Below are positions 19,993-29,556 of a stretch of DNA of 64,000 bases, piece after piece (positions within the stretch are counted from its first letter, which is position 1; each line of letters begins with the position of its first letter). The stretch comes from Litoditis marina. Its lineage: Eukaryota; Nematoda; Chromadorea; Rhabditida; Rhabditidae. The notes under the pieces were generated by a model. The model was given only the letters and a program-made list of their open reading frames with translations. It had not been told where the DNA came from and searched no databases. The stretch spans positions 26,581,485 through 26,645,484 of the forward strand of contig OZ038433.1 of assembly GCA_964036275.1 (NCBI GenBank). The letters run 5' to 3'. Position numbers and translations under genes: made by a program.

Positions 19993-22451
19993 ATATTAAT
20001 CGTGATATTTACCAAAAACGTTGTGTGAAATTGATTACTATTATTATAAGCGAGAATATTCAAACCCGCAGACACATGTCGAAATTTTTGAATGTGAAAA
20101 GTCTGTTGCACTCAATTCACATTCATCAGTTAAAACTTCATGAATCTCAATGAGGCATGTAGTAGTTCTTTTAGGTGCTAAACTCATCAAATTTACCTCA
20201 CGATTCCTGTAGAACTGGAGTTTTCCAATATGTGAAATACCCCAAACGGAAAAACCACTCTCTAGTGAAGTCATTCCGCACATATTCTAGCCTCTGGATA
20301 AAACCACTATCCAAGTTGCATACGGTAGTTCCGAACTCAATCCTTGGACAAAAGTGTTAAATGCCTTTAACGACACACTTTGATTCCGAGTTCTCGACAC
20401 CTCTGAAGGATCATACGTTTGCTGTTTATCAGACCGAATCATGTACCTCCTCACATGATCTTGAAATGATAGGTTAGCATTGCACCACGCTGGGTTGAAC
20501 GAATGAGAAAAATTGTGATAACATATTGAACTTTCCATGTGGAGATATTCAATTCAGTTATTTATCAATCGATTTCGAATTTGAATAATGAAAACCCTCA
20601 ATATGAACTTCTATTATTAGTCTTGTATTAAAGAAGTGTTGGACACGAAATCATTGCGTCTTAGCAAACATGTGGCTTTAGGTTAGTTATTATGGATCAC
20701 ATCAGAACAATTCAGGAAAGCGCAAGAATGTATTTTAAGAAAAGCGATAGACTAACAATTTAACGCTTTTTCTAATTAGACGCAGCCTGCACTATCGAAA
20801 AAGGTCGAGTTGAACACACTACGAGACATCGGTATTCACATTTTGGTTCGGGCTGAGCCGAAACCAAAGAAAAAGAATATCAGTGGTATTGCATAGAACT
20901 ACAGCCATAAGCGAAGTGAATGAATGGTGTCCTTTGAAGGCTCATGCAGACAAGATTTAAGATTTGATTTTTATTTGATCACATCACATTTTCCCAAAGT
21001 CTCCTTGACTGCTCTTAAGATTTAAATGCATATGAATACTTTATTCCGTGGAAAAGTGAGTGGTAACAAAAAAAGGAAACAGCAAACTGTGAAGACTCAA
21101 TAAGGAGAAAACACAACAAGGAGAAATAGAACAGAACCGAATCTATATCCTCACATCAAACAAAAACAAAACAATATAGTATATTATGGTCTTGGTGCCA
21201 TAATGTAATATTAACACTGGCTCGGGCGCCAATCTCTCCACCACTATGACAGATCTCATGGGACTTAGCCGTGGAAAATCTGGTACCAAGCCTTGCGGTA
21301 ACGAACTCCGGACTAAGTACCTCCTTAAGTCCCATATTTTAAAAACAGAACTTATTTATCTTTCAACAAAAAATGAACAAGTATATGAATTTAGATCAAA
21401 TTTTGTCATCAATTTTCAATTTTTCACTCGAAATTCAGTTTTATCAACTCGAAACCCCAGTTTTGTCGCATTGAAGACTCAAAAACTGACGCGTGGCTTT
21501 TTTCTTCGACTCTTCGAGCGGGCCTGATCCAATAAGCGCTCCATTATGTCGCCCTCTAACTACCCTTGGTTCTGTCTGAGCAGGCCTGGAAATAGACATA
21601 CGCTAATGGAACATACAGGGAACCAGGGGAGGTCAGCTCGAGATTTGGGGCAAAGTGGGAATGAAACGCAAACTCGTTCGGATATCCGAATAGTTTTGGC
21701 TTTGCGTTTTGCAATTGATTCATTTGAGGTGAGTTTCGAGTGAAAGTCGTCTTTATATGAAGACAAAAAAGCGCAAAGAGTTAACTTACATCATAACTTT
21801 CACGGCTAACTTTTATTCTCACGCGGACTCGTACAGTACACGGGGAGTACACTGTAGGAGCCAACAAGACAATGTAGTTTGCTCTGCTTCTCTGTTTACA
21901 ATCGTTTATTATCAAATCAACCTTTCCGATGAGCAAACTACTAGTCTTCTAACTACTAACGTGAAGTCAAATCTTGATATTGACGTCAAATTCATGGGCG
22001 AACTATATGTGGTGCTAATGAACCATATGGATAGAAGAAGTTATTTCGTTTATTTCAGAATAACCCTGGTTTCAAGATACAGTGCATCGCGATGCGCGAA
22101 ATGCAACTCTTTGTAGAGCAGAACTTCAAGAATATTTCCAATGACGACTTCGAGTAGACTTCCCCCCTCCCCGGTCTATTTCATCTTTTTGTTTTCATGC
22201 TCATCCTGTTTTACGTGTTCTGAACTGGTTATTCAAATAAACATTGACAGAATTTCGTTTTCATTGAAGAGTATTCTCACTCTTGGACCGACATGGCCGA
22301 CCTAGACATGGTACGGCCATGTTCATAGGAAAAGCTTCACTACTATGGGCATTGGCATTCCGTACAAGTGTACCAGATTTACATACTGGTTTTGAAGATT
22401 TTCAGGAAACACGTAGTCTTCTGCGTTACAAAAACACGCTAACAACACAAG

Positions 22452-22463
22452 TGTTTATTTTAT
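22452..22463 (-). terminator. polyadenylation signal for minus-strand gene
   Basis: On the minus strand AAATAAAATAAA occurs about 55-65 bases beyond the TAG at 22516. It marks the likely 3' end of the histone-tail gene. Confidence 0.5.
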
Positions 22464-22515
22464 TTCATTCCCAACAACAATATCAACAAAACAAAAACAA
22501 ATACCGAAGAACATC

Positions 22516-23946
22516 CTATTGAGTGGAGCTCTTTTTAGTCTTGAGTTTTCCAACTCTGATACCGACGTGGTAACCCAGCTTGTAGCGTTCTTCCTCACTT
22601 CTTTGAAGCGCTTGCCGTAGGAGGTCATCTGCTTCCTCTTCCTTGGCTGCCCAGGCTTTTTGGGGCCTCCTTGAACCCCGACTTGTACGCGGACTTCAGC
22701 ATGGAGAATACACATGCCTTCGATGTACATGTGATTTCTGAAAAACATTCAGTAGTTAAATTTTGTGAACAAATGAGGCCATTGCCATGGCCAACATGGC
22801 CGCAATACACATGGTCCGGCCATGTCTTACCTACTTTGTGCAAAAAGGACATTATGGTTGCGTTAAGGTAACATTTTTACTTTGGTTTTTCACGGTGACA
22901 TGGCCGAACCACGTATGGCTCGGCCATGTCACCAGTGATCAATTGAACACAACGCACATTTTGACGTATACCTCAATTATTTTACTGCTGCAGCGATAAT
23001 GACACAGCGAATAGGGAAAACTACTTCCCCCCCCCATTGGAAACAGAATGTGAGACCTAGTTATGGTAATAATATATAGTTATCGAATGGCGAAGGGGGT
23101 CGGGGAGCCATTCAGTAGTTGAGATTTTTGATGGTATGATTGCGTTAAGGTAATATTTATAGGTGGTAGCTCGGTTCAAACTTCGTTATGCAGTGAGTGG
23201 AAAAAATGATGTCTTTCAGAAAAGGACATTGGAAATGTGAGGTTGGCACATGGGTGATAATCAAAGGAAACTTTATTGTGAAAAACGCATTTAAAAGGCC
23301 AGGTTTCATATGTCCAACAATATTTAGAATTTGGATGCATCACGACTTACCTTTAATCGGATCGCCACTTTACGTGGGGAAAGAAGCACAGAAGGAAGTG
23401 GTTCCGGGTCCGGACATCCAAACACCGTACGCTACTGATGTCGGCTGCGGCGGGCTGAATGACTAAAATGAGTGAAGCAAGTATATAGAAAACGCAATCT
23501 CTCAGAGTGGAACTTCCAGAGCAACGGTTAAAGCTCCCAGATTAATATAATCTTACAGATTTTTATCCGTTCAAAGATTACAAATCTTCCAGATGGGAAT
23601 TTCCGGAACGACACAAAAATTACATGTACGTACTCTTTAATCAGTTTAAGTGTTTTTTAACGGTGTTAGGGTGTGACTAAGGAACATTGGTTCACTCCAA
23701 GACATTTTTTTTCATATTTTTCCTACCTTTTTTCATCTCTTCTGCTTTTATTGTCTCCTCAGTCTCTGAACTTATGTCGAGTTCAGATTCTTCCGATTCG
23801 TCTTCATCCCACTCGTATTTTGTTTTCTTGCAGGCTCCGGTTGCGGGCATTGACTTTCGAGCAGCCAAGGTGGCCAGTTGCTTCCGCGGGGGTTTCTTGA
23901 GTGCCTCGCGACGGTCCCGCCAGGCGGTGAGTTTTGTACGACCCAT
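22516..23946 (-). CDS. histone H3-tail-like protein, structure after exon 1 unresolved
   Basis: Exon 1 (23946-23727, 73 codons plus one base) is clear. It begins MGRTKLTA, like the start of H3, then has PPRKQLATLAARKS and MPATGACKK, matching H3 residues around 16-37. Lysines corresponding to K4, K18, K27 and K36 are kept; K23 is Leu. From residue 41 the sequence turns acidic (WDEDESEESELD) instead of entering the H3 histone fold. The donor is G|GTAGGA. A plausible second exon (23462-23351) hits TAA near its end in the joined frame. A third block ending in TAG at 22516 is open and helix-like (EEEADDLLRQALQRSEEER, then a basic tail) and is followed by a polyadenylation signal. Either a model detail is missed or the gene is decaying. 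A nuclear role is inferred only from the tail. Confidence 0.55.
22856..23160. repeat. composite repeat, copy 1 (units a and b)
   Basis: Unit a (22856-23020) carries the extended palindrome and ends in a decayed copy of the KRVTF gene's second exon after CTGCTGCAG. Unit b (about 23053-23160) carries GGCGAAGGGGGTCGGGGAGC. Both units recur at 24540-25640. Confidence 0.75.
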
Positions 23947-24362
23947 TACGCTAAAATTAGGAGAAAATGAGGACACAATTATATAAAATTTATATAAAAT
24001 AGGAAATTATAATACAACAATATGCTATGCATGACTTCTATATTTAACACGTAAAAATTTACTTATTGCTCCAAAACGAATGGCTACCGTAGTTCTGTCA
24101 TTGGAGCGCCCTTTATCTATTCGCCCTTCAATCCACCGTTCAATTCGCTGCGTTTGTTTCTGCGGTTTCGCTCATTTTAAACTTATGTATACTGTTCACT
24201 TATTCCCAGCTACCTGTTCAATTCTAACTATCTCTAATTAGCCATTATTTCTTTTGTGTTCCTATACGTTTTTTTCCTTCGTCCCTTCATATTATTTACA
24301 ATGTCTTTTGATTCTGTCGATAACTATTTGACCATCACTCATTCAATATTGTCTTGTTCAGA

Positions 24363-25888
24363 ATGGCGAAACGAGTCGGGGAATCTATATTGTCGTCTCG
24401 TCCAAAGAAGGCACGAACATGTTCGAAGCGAGTGACATTTCCTCAATATTTGCAAGATAACTATGTGGCACGCACTCCCAGTCCCCCGCCGACGGTTGAA
24501 TATTTGAGGTAAGCTGATTCTGGATAAATCAGGGAGGGACCAGACCTAGGTATGGTGATAATATATAGTTATCGAGGTTGTTCAGAATGGCGAAGGGGGT
24601 CGGGGAGCCATTCAGTAGTTGAGAGTTTTCATGGTATGATTGCGTTAAGGTAATATTTATGTGTTGTCTGAGAGCAAAATACAAAAAAACAACCTAAAAT
24701 GAATTGAGAGAATTATGTTATATATAATATATAGTTGGTGTGTCCATGGTATGGTTGCGTTGAGGTAATATTTTTACTTTGGTTTTTTATGGTAACATGG
24801 CCGAACCACGTGTGGCTCGGCCATGTCACCAGTAATCAATTGAACACAAAGCACAGTTTGACGTATACCTCAGCTGTTTTACTGCTGCAGCGATGACACA
24901 GCGAATAAGGAAAACTCCCCCCCCCCAATGGAAACAGAATGTGAGATCTAGGTATGGTAATAATATATAGTTATCGAATGGCAAAGGGGGTCGGGGAGCC
25001 ATTCAGTAGTTGAGAGTTTTCATGGTATGATTGCGTTAAGGTAATGTGTTGTCTGAGAGAAAAATACAAAAAACACTTAAAATGAATTGAGAGAATTATG
25101 TTATATATAATATATAGTTAGTGTGTTCATGGTATGGTTGCGTTAAGGTAATATTTTTACTTTGGTTTTTACGGTGACATGGCCGAACCACGTATGGCTC
25201 GGCCATGTCACCTGTAATCAATTGAACACAAAGCACAGTTTGACGTATACCTCAGTTGTTTTACTGCTGCAGCGATGACACAGCGAACAAGGAAAACTTC
25301 CCTCCTGAATGGAAGCAAAATGTGAGAAACAGAATGTACGCACGTTCAACCGAGCCTGAGTTCAAGAAGAGGTGAGTCTTTGTAAAACTTACAATATAGT
25401 GGTTAGATGCGAATTTGAATCAGGCAGATTGCTTACAGTACACTATTGAGTAGTTCAGTTATCGAGTTGAATTGTATAATATATAGTTAGTGTGTCCATG
25501 GTATGGTTGCGTTAAGGTAATATTTTTACTTTGGGTTTTTACGGTGACATGGCCGAACCACGTATGGCTCGGTCATGTTACCAGTAATCAATTGAACACA
25601 AAGCACAGTTTGACGTATACCTCTATTATTTTACTAGATTGGTTACAGTACACTAATAGACACCTAATCTCTCAGTTTTCTGTAATCTGGCAGATATGTA
25701 ATGAGTTGGGATGTTTTCCTTGAACTATTATAAATCAGTTCAACCTTTCCAGGCGAAGATTGGAGAAAGCCCTCGTGAGAAAGCGGAGGGTGGAGATCGC
25801 TAACACGCTTCTCAAATTGGAGGACCATCCTCCGAGACCGTTCAACAAATTTTGCGGTTTGCGCTTTTTCCGTGATTTAGAGATTTAG
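24363..25888 (+). CDS. small basic protein with KRVTF motif, unknown function
   Basis: Exons 24363-24508, 25273-25371 and 25753-25888 join in phase to give 126 residues and a stop. The ATG lies one base after TTGTTCAG, a typical trans-splice acceptor. The protein is rich in Lys, Arg and Pro. Near residue 23 it has KRVTF, which fits the RVxF docking motif for protein phosphatase 1, and then a TPSPPP proline stretch. The C-terminal third (RRLEKALVRKRRVEIANTLL) is probably a basic helix. No known domain is recognised. It is divergent from the histone-tail gene, with 416 bp between the two ATGs, and lies upstream of the SET gene. AATAAA occurs near 26060. The second exon lies inside a locally repeated block. 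Confidence 0.65.
24540..25640. repeat. composite repeat, further copies within introns of the KRVTF gene
   Basis: Unit b copies lie at about 24540-24660 and 24945-25045. Unit a copies lie at about 24751-24915, 25131-25292 and 25499-25634 (last one truncated). Each unit a contains the 40-bp palindrome. The 25131 copy holds the functional second exon, and the 24751 copy holds a decayed version with a run of ten Cs. Confidence 0.78.
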
Positions 25889-26230
25889 GTAGTATATCTA
25901 AAATGTTCAATTTGAAATTGATCTAGTTTTTTGTTAGATTCGCCTATGGTGAAAAGTTGCTCTTTCGCTATTATGTCGTTTTTATTTTCGTTTTGTATCC
26001 ATGATGTTTGTATCCATTTGTATGCTTGTGTTAGTTGTCTATTGTTGTTTCTTGTTGTAATAAATTAGTGCAGAATACGCAAGTGTATGTTTCAAACAAT
26101 GTTCGATTCGTAATTACCTCACCCAGTCAATGTCGGACCAGATGTGGTCCGGCCAAGTATTTTTTGGCATTTTTCTGTGTACACGTAAATTATTTTTCTG
26201 TGTAAACGTAAATTGTCTTCATTTCTAGCT
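25889..26230 (+). other. short intergenic spacer, possible operon junction
   Basis: AATAAA lies near 26060. A decayed palindrome follows at about 26128-26159, then the acceptor TTTCTAG two bases before the SET gene ATG. The spacing from signal to acceptor is about 170 bp, within the range seen in nematode operons. Co-transcription is inferred. Confidence 0.4.
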
Positions 26231-29200
26231 ATGACACCAATACCCAGAAGCAGACGACCGCAAATCAGACGCGAGTGTGATGAGGCCATATCAGTGAGTG
26301 ATACCAAAGTGAAGCAGCGTAACCAAATAAACTGCCAAACCACAAAAGTCTATTGATGTTTAGGCGCAGTCAGAACAAAAATATCAGATATAGGATTTGT
26401 CAAACCGTTGTGGACACCGTACCATTGATTTTGTATGGGACGGGGTTTGGCGAGCAGCCAGTTCGTCTGCGTATCATTGATCTACACACTCTCTCAACTG
26501 CTGACACATAACCAACGACCGCTCGCCCCGCATCGCTCAATCAATTGAACCCTCTGCTGTCTTTATGAGGTAAATGGCGACTATAGAGACTTGGAACATC
26601 TCAATAAAGTATGTGTCCAATTATTCTGTTGTTTCAAACATTTGTATCTATAATCTGTATCTATAATCGTTTATACTCAAATCAAACGTTCCGATGAGCA
26701 AACTACAGTCAACAATCGCAGACTAACATGGCCGCACCATGTGTGGAGCGGCCATGTGATTTTAGGCTGCGTTAGGTTTTAATCTAAATGTAGCAGTGTG
26801 TTTTAAACTTAATTACTGTATGTTACAGAGAAAACACTATTCCATGGTACGCTCGGAAACACCATGTGCTATGAAGGCTTACGAAGACTACGTACAGAGC
26901 GCTCCTCCACGGACTACAGACCAGACGGAGTGTATGCTTCACATCGCGTCGATCAATTTTCCTTGGTGTGAACAAAAAAGAGTCCCTCTCTTAGGAGGAA
27001 AAGGTGAGCCACATGCAGTTATGCCCTTTTCAATACCTCCGTACAATGTCGTGAAGTCGTACCACAAATTTATGTTGCAGGACTGTTCGCGACGCGTCCC
27101 ATCCCTGACAGCTCTCTGGTTACGGGCCACTACAGCGACTTTGTCGCTTCATTCGAATCTGTCTCCGATTCCAGCTTTCTCGAATGTGGAAATCGCAGCA
27201 TAGACGCTGCGCGTTTGACGAAACTTGCTTCTAATGGTGAGTATCCTACAGTACTGATATCGCAGTTTGAGTATCTACAATGATCAGCACACAACTCATC
27301 GTGATGTAGGAACATTACGCTTGGCCGGAAACATGGCCGCGCCAGACATGGTGCGGCCATGTAAGTTGAATTGTTTGTTTCTTTGAATTGTAGATTTGAC
27401 TCGTTATATCCCATTCATATTGGTTCATCAACTGTCCGGAATGTGTAAGAAGTGGCTGCAGCTTATGTGCCCAGCCTATGCCAAACCATGGCTGAATCAG
27501 AACTAACCTTGATCTTCCGCTGTCTTTACTTTACTACGCTTCCAGATGCCGGATCACAATTTTTTGGAGGTTGTGCTAACCATTGTGTTCGCCACCAGAA
27601 TTGTCGCTTCACAACTATGAAGGGCATTCCGTTTCCTGTCCTTGTTTCAACCAAGCACATCGCCGCAGGCGAGCAAGTCACGGTAAATTATAATCCGGAC
27701 CGGACCGATCGCTTTGATTTCCACAACAAGTGCCCGTGTACGAGAAAATGGAGTGATGAGGAGAAAAATCTGTTCAGAATCAAGGTGATTTTTATTGACG
27801 TATTTGGTAGAGTTCGTTGCATTCAACTCTTCTCATAAGTGTTCAAATAAATATCGTTTCAGTTGCGTGAAGTGCAAGCGATAGCTAGAAAGAGGAGAGA
27901 AGACATGGAGAGAAAAGAAGTGATGGAAAGGTTGGCTTGATTATCTCTGCTTACATAGCCATTTTCTCGGTCTCTTAGAAAAATATTTGAATTGACGTTA
28001 TATATTTAATTAAGGAGAAGCACGTTGACGTGTTGTCAGAACCAGGGACGAAGAGACCAAAACTCATATCAGCACAGTCAAGGGTTCAGATGAGAAGGAG
28101 GAGGTGGAAGAGGTGAGCGTCTCGCAACATTGACACTACATGGGCTTGCATGGCCTGACCATGTATGGGCGGCCCACGTAAAACTAGGCATGGCCGAGTC
28201 ATGCTTATTTTTCAGTGTTGGTAGCAAAGTAGTATACAATAACTTGACCCTATTACAGGCCAGACACAACCACGCTCCGTATAATCCGCAACCATCTGAG
28301 ATTAGGGTAAGTGTGGTGCTATTTTTTATTGACTGCGCCGCAACGATGATGACATTCCCCTTTTTTTCATTTAGCTAGACTGTTATTTTTCTGCAGAAAA
28401 CACTTAACCCGTATTGAATTTAGTGAGGGTGGAATTGTAAATCATTTTATAGGAGGTGCCGAAACTGCGTTTCGATGTATTCCGCGATGACGACGATGAT
28501 TGGAGCGACGTCGACACAGAGTCCGAGATGTCTGATATATCCGACTACGATGATTGTGACGATCGCCGCACCGAAGGAGATGAAGGAGGGCTTGTGGAGG
28601 ATGGGGAGACGGGCGGGAAGATGGAGACGCAGTCGGAAGGCGAAGAAGAGGAGAAGAAGGTGAGCTATAAGGTTGAGATTGTTGTACCCATACAAAAATA
28701 AGAATGTTCAACTTGACTTTTCACAGTTTTCATTTTAAAAAAAGTTTTCACATGACATGGCCGCACCACGTGTGGTCCGGCCATGTCTCTTCTGTATTAA
28801 ACGTTTCATTCAGATCGCGCTCGGACAACAGATGCAGAATGAGAGAGAATGCGAAGAGCAGGAAAACAAGGTGAGAGAGTTCAATAAGGGGAGTGGTACA
28901 TTTCACGATGAGGTAAAGCATGCGTGGCTCAACCATGTTGTATCCATACAATTCACAACTTCATTTCAAATTTTCATTTGAAAAAAGTTTCCACATGGCC
29001 GCACCACGTGTGGTTCGGCAATGTCTCTGTTGTGTTAAACGTTTTATTTAGTTCTCGGCGTGGGAACGTTATCTGATGGCACCTTCTGAGAAGAGACCTC
29101 GAGACAAAACCTGGTGTGTAATTTGCAACAGGTTCAAGGATCATCGCATGCGTGGTTGTTTGGCAATGCACACTCTAATTGGATCAGATTCGGAATTTCT

Positions 29201-29356
29201 GGCCTTTTGTAGGTGAGTCGTCACGTATCGATCGATATAGATGTTTTTGGTGTTGCCGAGCCATGTTCAATCCAGCCACCTCCTATATGTTCAGTCTGGA
29301 TGATTTTCAGGCATGTCTCCTCCGCAGGCTTCCTCCCTCCCGACAACGCCGTTACC
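26231..29356 (+). CDS. divergent SET-domain protein, 3' end lost in gap
   Basis: Exons: 26231-26293, 26829-27003, 27081-27236, 27546-27784, 27863-27930, 28040-28112, 28259-28306, 28453-28659, 28814-28870, 29052-29212, and 29311 into the gap; all phases match, giving about 430 residues. The SET domain runs from GLFATRPIP (about residue 80) to a Cys-rich post-SET-like CPCTRKW. The core has GGCANHC...QNCRF in place of the usual NHSCxPNC, and GEQVTVNYN in place of GEELTxDY, keeping the tyrosine. A charged helical stretch and a very acidic segment (FRDDDDDWSDVDTESEMSD) follow. Near the gap is a possible zinc-binding WCVICNRFKDHRMRGC. SET domains methylate lysines, usually on histones; the altered NH motif leaves activity uncertain. 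Substrate is unknown. Confidence 0.8.
26399..26549. repeat. dispersed repeat fragment (partner of 6712-6790)
   Basis: It lies in the first SET-gene intron and shares end blocks with the contactin-intron copy. It is longer here because of extra central sequence. Confidence 0.45.
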
Positions 29357-29556
29357 NNNNNNNNNNNNNNNNNNNNNNNNNNNNNNNNNNNNNNNNNNNN
29401 NNNNNNNNNNNNNNNNNNNNNNNNNNNNNNNNNNNNNNNNNNNNNNNNNNNNNNNNNNNNNNNNNNNNNNNNNNNNNNNNNNNNNNNNNNNNNNNNNNNN
29501 NNNNNNNNNNNNNNNNNNNNNNNNNNNNNNNNNNNNNNNNNNNNNNNNNNNNNNNN
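29357..29556. other. assembly gap (200 N)
   Basis: Exactly 200 Ns separate the unfinished SET gene from the retrotransposon array. The round number suggests a placeholder, so true distance and adjacency are unknown. Confidence 0.98.

Follow-up and report, generated by a model that had tools for sequence, protein, structure and literature searches.

A gene on the minus strand of the analysed stretch of nematode DNA (64,000 nucleotides, hereafter the window) joins, in its first exon, an N-terminal tail descended from histone H3 to an acidic segment that stands in the place of the histone fold. Descent of the tail from H3 was well supported by the sequence. The evidence for purifying selection on the tail since it left H3 was good but not conclusive. 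Of the readings considered, the most likely is that the product (called here the mimic) works in the nucleus as a soluble H3-tail decoy, or as a pseudo-substrate, for proteins recognising H3 residues 14-37; this reading is drawn from the sequence and we give it a probability of about 0.35. Coordinates of the gene and of its two neighbours are collected in Table 1.

Table 1. Features of the mimic gene and of the neighbouring genes (positions in the window; a slash marks the exon boundary)
Feature	Positions	Strand	Remarks
Exon 1, H3-like tail plus acidic stretch	23727..23946	-	220 nt; donor AAAG/GTAGG, phase 1
H3-derived tail, residues 1-41	23824..23946	-	MGRTKLTA + WRD insertion + RREALKKPPRKQLATLAARKSMPATGACKK
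Acidic non-histone segment TKYEWDEDESEESELDISSETEETIKAEEMKK, residues 42-73	23728..23823	-	score 20 against H3
Possible SL trans-splice acceptor AATTTTAG	23947..23958	-	4 nt before the ATG
Intron 1 (model i)	22738..23726	-	contains D1-D3 repeats, of which neighbour P1 has copies too
Exon 2, model i, EITCTSKACVFSMLKSAYKSGFKEAPKSLGSQGRGSR	22625..22737	-	acceptor TTTTTCAG; stop 22627-22625; protein of 110 aa
Exon 2, model ii, AKEEEADDLLRQALQRSEEERYKLGYHVGIRVGKLKTKKSSTQ	22516..22646	-	weaker acceptor GGGCAG; stop 22518-22516; protein of 116 aa
Two overlapping AATAAA polyadenylation signals	22454..22464	-	after both candidate stops
P1, divergent neighbour, MAKRVGESIL...	24363..25888	+	exon model by eye
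SET-domain gene, acidic C-terminal part	26231..29213	+	exon model by eye

Exon 1 ran from an ATG to a proper splice donor (ATGAAAAAAG/GTAGG) and its translation read MGRTKLTAWRDRREALKKPPRKQLATLAARKSMPATGACKKTKYEWDEDESEESELDISSETEETIKAEEMKK(G/). The acceptor pattern YTYHAG, located at most 6 nt upstream of 36 of the 2,075 ATGs in the window, was present before the mimic (TTTTAG) and before the SET gene (TTCTAG) and was narrowly missed by P1 (GTTCAG). The SL1 sequence, when followed by GT, gave 756 exact matches in the 262-Mb genome as compared to none in the reversed control, which identifies the genome as that of a nematode. Codon usage was scored with a model built from 609 codons in exons of the window chosen by eye, the null distribution of log-odds having a mean of -12.5 and 95 and 99% points of 0.8 and 7.1, respectively. 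Both halves of exon 1 (36 codons each) exceeded the 99% point (8.8 and 9.0 for the first and the second half), and the score of the second one indicated that the acidic half also looks coding. For exon 2, the frame of model i scored 7.1 for its 36 codons and -9.6 for the part that follows, and the frame of model ii, whose protein has a Lys/Glu-rich end, gave -12.0 and then -1.7 from codon 36 onward. A third frame (22748-22455) was open throughout, with log-odds of 2.9 and 1.9 that lie above the null 95% point, and was set aside, though still a candidate, because splicing of the exon 1 donor to the acceptor at 22737 does not reach it in phase. Since the exon 2 frames disagree in acceptor and codon scores, the 3' half of the mimic protein is uncertain; a frame change or alternative splicing in exon 2 is possible. 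A middle exon (acceptor 23462, ATTTTAG; donor AAAG/GTAAGT) was rejected on account of a stop in every frame read by eye, and the PDB matches of the model ii ORF (the best one to a designed repeat protein, E = 1.6e-4) were considered compositional, no stretch passing alone.

Codons 1-41 of exon 1 (MGRTKLTAWRDRREALKKPPRKQLATLAARKSMPATGACKK) encoded the same residue as the genome's own replicative H3 at 26 of the 38 positions that could be aligned, the initiator Met being counted; identity rose to 19 of 24 in K14-K37 and to 16 of 18 in P16-G33, both blocks having been picked after inspection of the alignment. The latter, which was the best-kept block, holds the K18 and K27 contexts. Beginning at its start codon, the mimic followed H3 residues 1-37 in collinear order, apart from three residues inserted after A7. 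The first-pass annotation had read exon 1 as a copy of the H3 N-terminal tail with counterparts of K4, K18, K27 and K36 and with Leu replacing K23, and the searches and alignments bore this out. The top match of exon 1 among PDB sequences (phmmer) was histone H3.1 (E = 1.9e-5, residues 3-42); 119 sequences were obtained at E <= 1, and the best 60 of these 119 were H3, H3/CENP-A chimeras or one Cse4. The local alignment of the mimic with H3 scored 104; when the 84-aa ORF was shuffled 10,000 times the maximum was 56, and when its first 44 residues were shuffled as often it was 68. The window contains 2,220 stop-to-stop ORFs with a length of 20 aa or more; of these, the mimic ORF ranked first against H3 and the next one scored 40.

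Counterparts of R2, T3, K4, K14, R17, K18, Q19, R26, K27, S28, K36 and K37 were found in the mimic tail, whereas K9, S10 and K23 of H3 were lost. Further changes with respect to H3 affected A1 (to Gly), Q5 (to Leu), A29 (to Met) and G34-V35 (to Ala-Cys). In the part that resembles H3 1-10, R2-T3-K4 and T6-A7 were kept, A1, Q5, K9 and S10 were altered, and R8 was matched only across the three-residue gap. The position of K27 was occupied by Lys, and not by Met or Ile, the Met sitting at 29; the ARKS around K27 was kept.

Net charge shifted from +12 for residues 1-44 of the mimic to -12 for residues 45-72. The acidic stretch that had been reported at the place where the H3 fold should start was confirmed as non-histone, its score of 20 against H3 corresponding to no noteworthy alignment, and no second copy or donor of the segment appeared in a search of the genome up to E = 10. 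A downstream exon capable of restoring the fold, the presence of which would have spoken against the annotation, was looked for and none was found: minus-strand ORFs of 15 aa or more in 21001-23850 all scored 32 or less against H3 from residue 38 on, and PF00125, the histone-fold family, had 66 matches in the genome, of which none fell in the window. No Pfam match was obtained for the mimic ORF at E up to 5, and no known domain in the non-tail remainder of the protein. Because it has no histone fold, the mimic cannot, according to established knowledge, replace H3 in nucleosomes, and its product could not form a nucleosome core. As a separate observation, a divergent H3 gene identified by eye as CENP-A-like lies at G000:C16:3050311-3051466 (L040), and an acidic ORF upstream of it (DSDESEEDELDENETEAG) resembles by eye the acidic part of the mimic.

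When H3 residues 1-65 were searched against the whole genome at E values of up to 10 (only the best candidates being scored), 24 matches were returned. Eighteen of them corresponded to the replicative H3 array on C3 and four to two H3.3-like genes that contain introns, one on C18 and one on C19, with two exons each, the remaining ones being the mimic itself and one fold exon of the CENP-A-like gene on C16. The tail-acidic hybrid was found once in the 262-Mb genome, by whole-protein as well as by piecewise searches, and the other 18 matches of the hybrid protein search were the H3 array. In this tandem histone array (G000:C3:13133197-13208540), many of the H3 genes are spaced ~3,351 bases apart, with further PF00125 matches in between. 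The mimic carries A31 as replicative H3 does, the residue being Ser in both H3.3-like genes, and it does not contain the intron that both of these genes present after K23; these two sequence features suggest that it descended from replicative H3 rather than from H3.3. The term mimic, taken from the first-pass annotation, can be understood as implying convergence; match length, collinearity, A31 and codon pattern fit better with descent from a replicative H3 gene. Short linear motifs can converge; a chance or convergent likeness to H3 is, however, strongly disfavoured and we hold it to be extremely improbable, given a collinear match across H3 1-37 from the start codon that two sets of 10,000 shuffles came nowhere near.

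Outside this genome, a protein database offered one candidate homologue and none at E <= 0.01, and the pattern stretches obtained (104 in genome_contigs and 26 in viral_contigs) included no relative; a DNA pattern of the H3 tail was absent from viral_contigs. These negative results say little because the three collections hold few animal genes. The same DNA pattern occurred in eight stretches of genome_contigs. Two of them (L001 and L007) look like chance, and the six others (L002-L006 and L008), which come from bacterial MAG records, contain H3 sequence of eukaryotic type, probably reflecting MAG contamination; in L006 the eukaryotic H3 sequence ends at the contig end.

With respect to the genome's own H3, synonymous sites in the mimic tail were near saturation and amino acids were retained. 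Three-point distances were calculated against three of the genome's own H3 genes, any distance with p above 0.74 being set to 3.0. They gave, for the mimic branch, dS values of 1.80-1.85, 1.16-1.58, and 0.53-0.97 and dN values of 0.30-0.32, 0.18-0.21, and 0.12-0.15 for all 38 codons, K14-K37, and P16-G33, respectively, estimates based on no more than 38 codons in which synonymous sites are almost saturated. In a codon bootstrap that took the replicative H3 gene and the C18 gene as references, dN equalled or exceeded dS in 0.0000, 0.0010, and 0.0055 of 2,000 resamples for the same three sets, and the 5% lower bounds of branch dS were 0.85, 0.63, and 0.37. Under neutral simulation, the observed identity without stops was obtained in no more than 0.0002 of the 5,000 runs when the branch length was 0.5 or greater, in 0.030, 0.007, and 0.003 of runs at 0.3, in 0.24, 0.08, and 0.03 at 0.2, and in 0.65, 0.56, and 0.28 at 0.1; neutral decay at branch lengths <=0.2 is hardly excluded. 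The comparison of dN and dS that had been proposed as a check of the annotation had a mixed outcome: dN below dS and the bootstrap were signs of past purifying selection, whereas a stricter fourfold/nondegenerate test on sites unanimous in the three H3 genes, which was underpowered, did not reach significance (p = 0.11, 0.25, and 0.45). Similar values of dN and dS, as expected for a pseudogene, were not observed (branch dN ~0.3 vs. dS ~1.8), and this contrast suggests lasting constraint, against simple decay.

These data also bear on the idea that the gene is on its way out, that is, an old H3-derived gene that is decaying or lineage-restricted and has no present function. It occurs as a single copy in a locus rich in repeats, no relative was found in the protein database, genome_contigs or viral_contigs (all with few animal genes), and the unanimous-site test was without significance. 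Moreover, the best-spliced exon 2 frame stops after 37 codons, beyond which all frames score <=1.9, and the uncertainty of the exon 2 frame leaves room for recent decay. Exon 1, in contrast, is open, with no stops or frameshifts (the frame being ambiguous in exon 2) and a coding signal in both halves; dN is well under dS, and splice and polyadenylation signals are present. Balancing both sides, we rate the loss of function as rather unlikely.

In the decoy reading, a single-copy gene descended from a replicative H3 gene kept the N-terminal tail, best in 14-37, and has an acidic segment where the fold would be. The 14-37 part would dock into enzymes or readers of H3 K18, K27 or K36, such as an EZH-type K27 methyltransferase or CBP; in H3 this region is contacted by K27 methyltransferases, K18/K27 acetyltransferases, K27 demethylases, and importins. 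Once docked, the mimic would compete with nucleosomal H3. The acidic part would offset the charge of the tail and keep it off DNA, or would bind histones, and could help or restrain the occupancy of tail proteins by the free tail. Expression, nuclear location, partners and competition of the mimic are what we infer here. PreSET_CXC domains (PF18264), which we take to be of the EZH type, were located at two places in the genome, indicating that an H3K27 writer is probably present. Since K27 is kept and not changed to Met, the mimic would behave as a substrate-like competitor and would probably be a weaker one than EZHIP; the changes A1G, A29M, G34A, and V35C could weaken binding. Mimicry based on ARKS has been proposed for ORF8 of SARS-CoV-2 and has been disputed (PMC10833455). 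The wider proposal, in which a fold-less histone gene became an endogenous nematode H3-tail decoy, kept by selection and tuning H3K27/K18 enzymes (perhaps in the germ line) independently of mammalian EZHIP, is put forward from the sequence as a tentative and somewhat doubtful one.

The tail could also function as an adaptor and not as an inhibitor. Methylated, acetylated or phosphorylated on K4, K18, K27, S28 or K36, it would recruit readers and bring them to the binding partners of the acidic or C-terminal part, as with methylated JARID2; automethylated G9a is another recruiter of readers. The modifiable residues are retained in the mimic, including the ARKS around K27, and methylated H3K27-like mimics in JARID2 and PALI1 are described as binding EED and activating PRC2 (PMC12713659). 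The remainder of the mimic protein, however, is without known domain, and we consider the adaptor unlikely. A different use of the same residues would be that of a nucleosome or DNA binder with a basic, DNA-contacting half and an acidic half, recognition by H3 enzymes then being incidental. The change in charge from +12 (residues 1-44) to -12 (residues 45-72) resembles that of HMGN-type proteins, but the 16 of 18 identities in P16-G33, uncharged residues included, are more than charge alone needs, and such a binder appears very unlikely.

The neighbouring gene raises another alternative, in which the tail would be a private substrate or regulator of the nearby SET-domain enzyme. The SET gene starts ~2.3 kb away and the SET part of its joined exons matched PF00856 (E = 4.8e-6, 27.4 bits vs. 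a cut-off of 22.4). Nevertheless, P1 intervenes between both genes; a region on C2 with copies of P1 and a diverged SET paralogue (C2:11935404-11935619, 37% identity) has no mimic; and the 18 PDB matches, all weak (best E = 0.013), did not point to one substrate class, with LegAS4, a huntingtin-interacting protein B, KMT5A, and a viral H3K27 methyltransferase among them. The proximity may be due to chance, and judged from the sequence a partnership of this kind is highly improbable.

Compared with known systems, the mimic shares with the replicative H3 of the C3 array the collinear tail (26/38), A31 and the absence of an intron after K23, and differs from it in having no fold, an acidic segment, a three-residue insertion and the loss of K9, S10, and K23. 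SNAG-domain proteins (SNAIL, GFI1) display an N-terminal H3-like pseudo-substrate that binds LSD1; SNAG domains resemble the first residues of H3 only, which in the mimic are the less conserved part. G9a has an H3-like lysine outside a histone, the mimic lysines of JARID2, PALI1, and G9a are placed in single short motifs of large enzymes or cofactors, and the histone mimic of influenza NS1 is short and convergent. EZHIP/CATACOMB, a K27M-like PRC2 inhibitor, is a non-histone protein that offers a tail enzyme a peptide resembling the H3 tail (PMC6513997, PMC12713659); this peptide, in a disordered protein, is reported to inhibit PRC2 competitively, with a Ki of ~2 nM (PMC6513997). EZHIP has Met at the position of K27, within a short motif at its C-terminus, and is absent outside placental mammals, whereas the mimic has the whole tail, N-terminal, H3-derived and with K27 kept. 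Influenza NS1 likewise has an H3-tail-like sequence in a non-histone protein, in this case viral and with the NS1 motif at the C-terminus (PMC12937675), and JARID2 and PALI1 have an H3-like lysine outside a histone (PMC12713659). The H3 mimics compared, EZHIP, NS1, and JARID2 among them, are motifs in proteins that are not H3-derived, and no fold-less H3-tail protein in nematodes was described among the matches listed from the open-licence literature. Histone mimicry is known as a kind; what is new here is a whole tail derived by descent, in N-terminal position and with a charge-matched acidic partner, in one genome. If the proposed reading is true, a fold-stripped and constrained tail inherited from H3 would constitute a natural separation-of-function histone, with which it could be asked which enzymes a free tail governs and whether the target can be read from the retention of K27 alongside the losses of K9 and K23.

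P1 is oriented head to head with the mimic, the start codons being 417 bases apart, and carries KRVTF, which we take to be a possible PP1-docking motif. The intergenic stretch between the mimic and P1 has ~95% identical copies, twice on C2, and the stretch 25181-26128 has ~91% identical copies, also twice on C2; the likeness ends ~75 bases before the start of the mimic and no second mimic was found in that region. Partial copies of P1 are located at C2:11916270-11917505 and C2:11928365-11929597 (~91-95% DNA identity), the first exon not being found there. Many of the base differences between P1 exon 3 and the C2 copies alter amino acids (74% protein identity). Taken from its sequence, P1 seems to evolve fast or under relaxed constraint. 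Its single PDB match was a ribosomal death-associated protein (E = 2.1e-4). The D1-D3 repeats were located at 22826-23154, in intron 1 of the mimic, and at 24523-25045, 25105-25308, and 25475-25635, within P1, and they partly resemble, by eye, P1 exon sequence. The SET gene continues into a very acidic downstream exon and then a Cys/His-containing end (WCVICNRFKDHRMRGC). Further downstream, 200 Ns occupy ~29357-29556 of the window, and from ~30200 to 64000 repeated Ty3-like retroelement ORFs were recognised by eye, together with repeats reading 'NGYVKTIDRDVV'.
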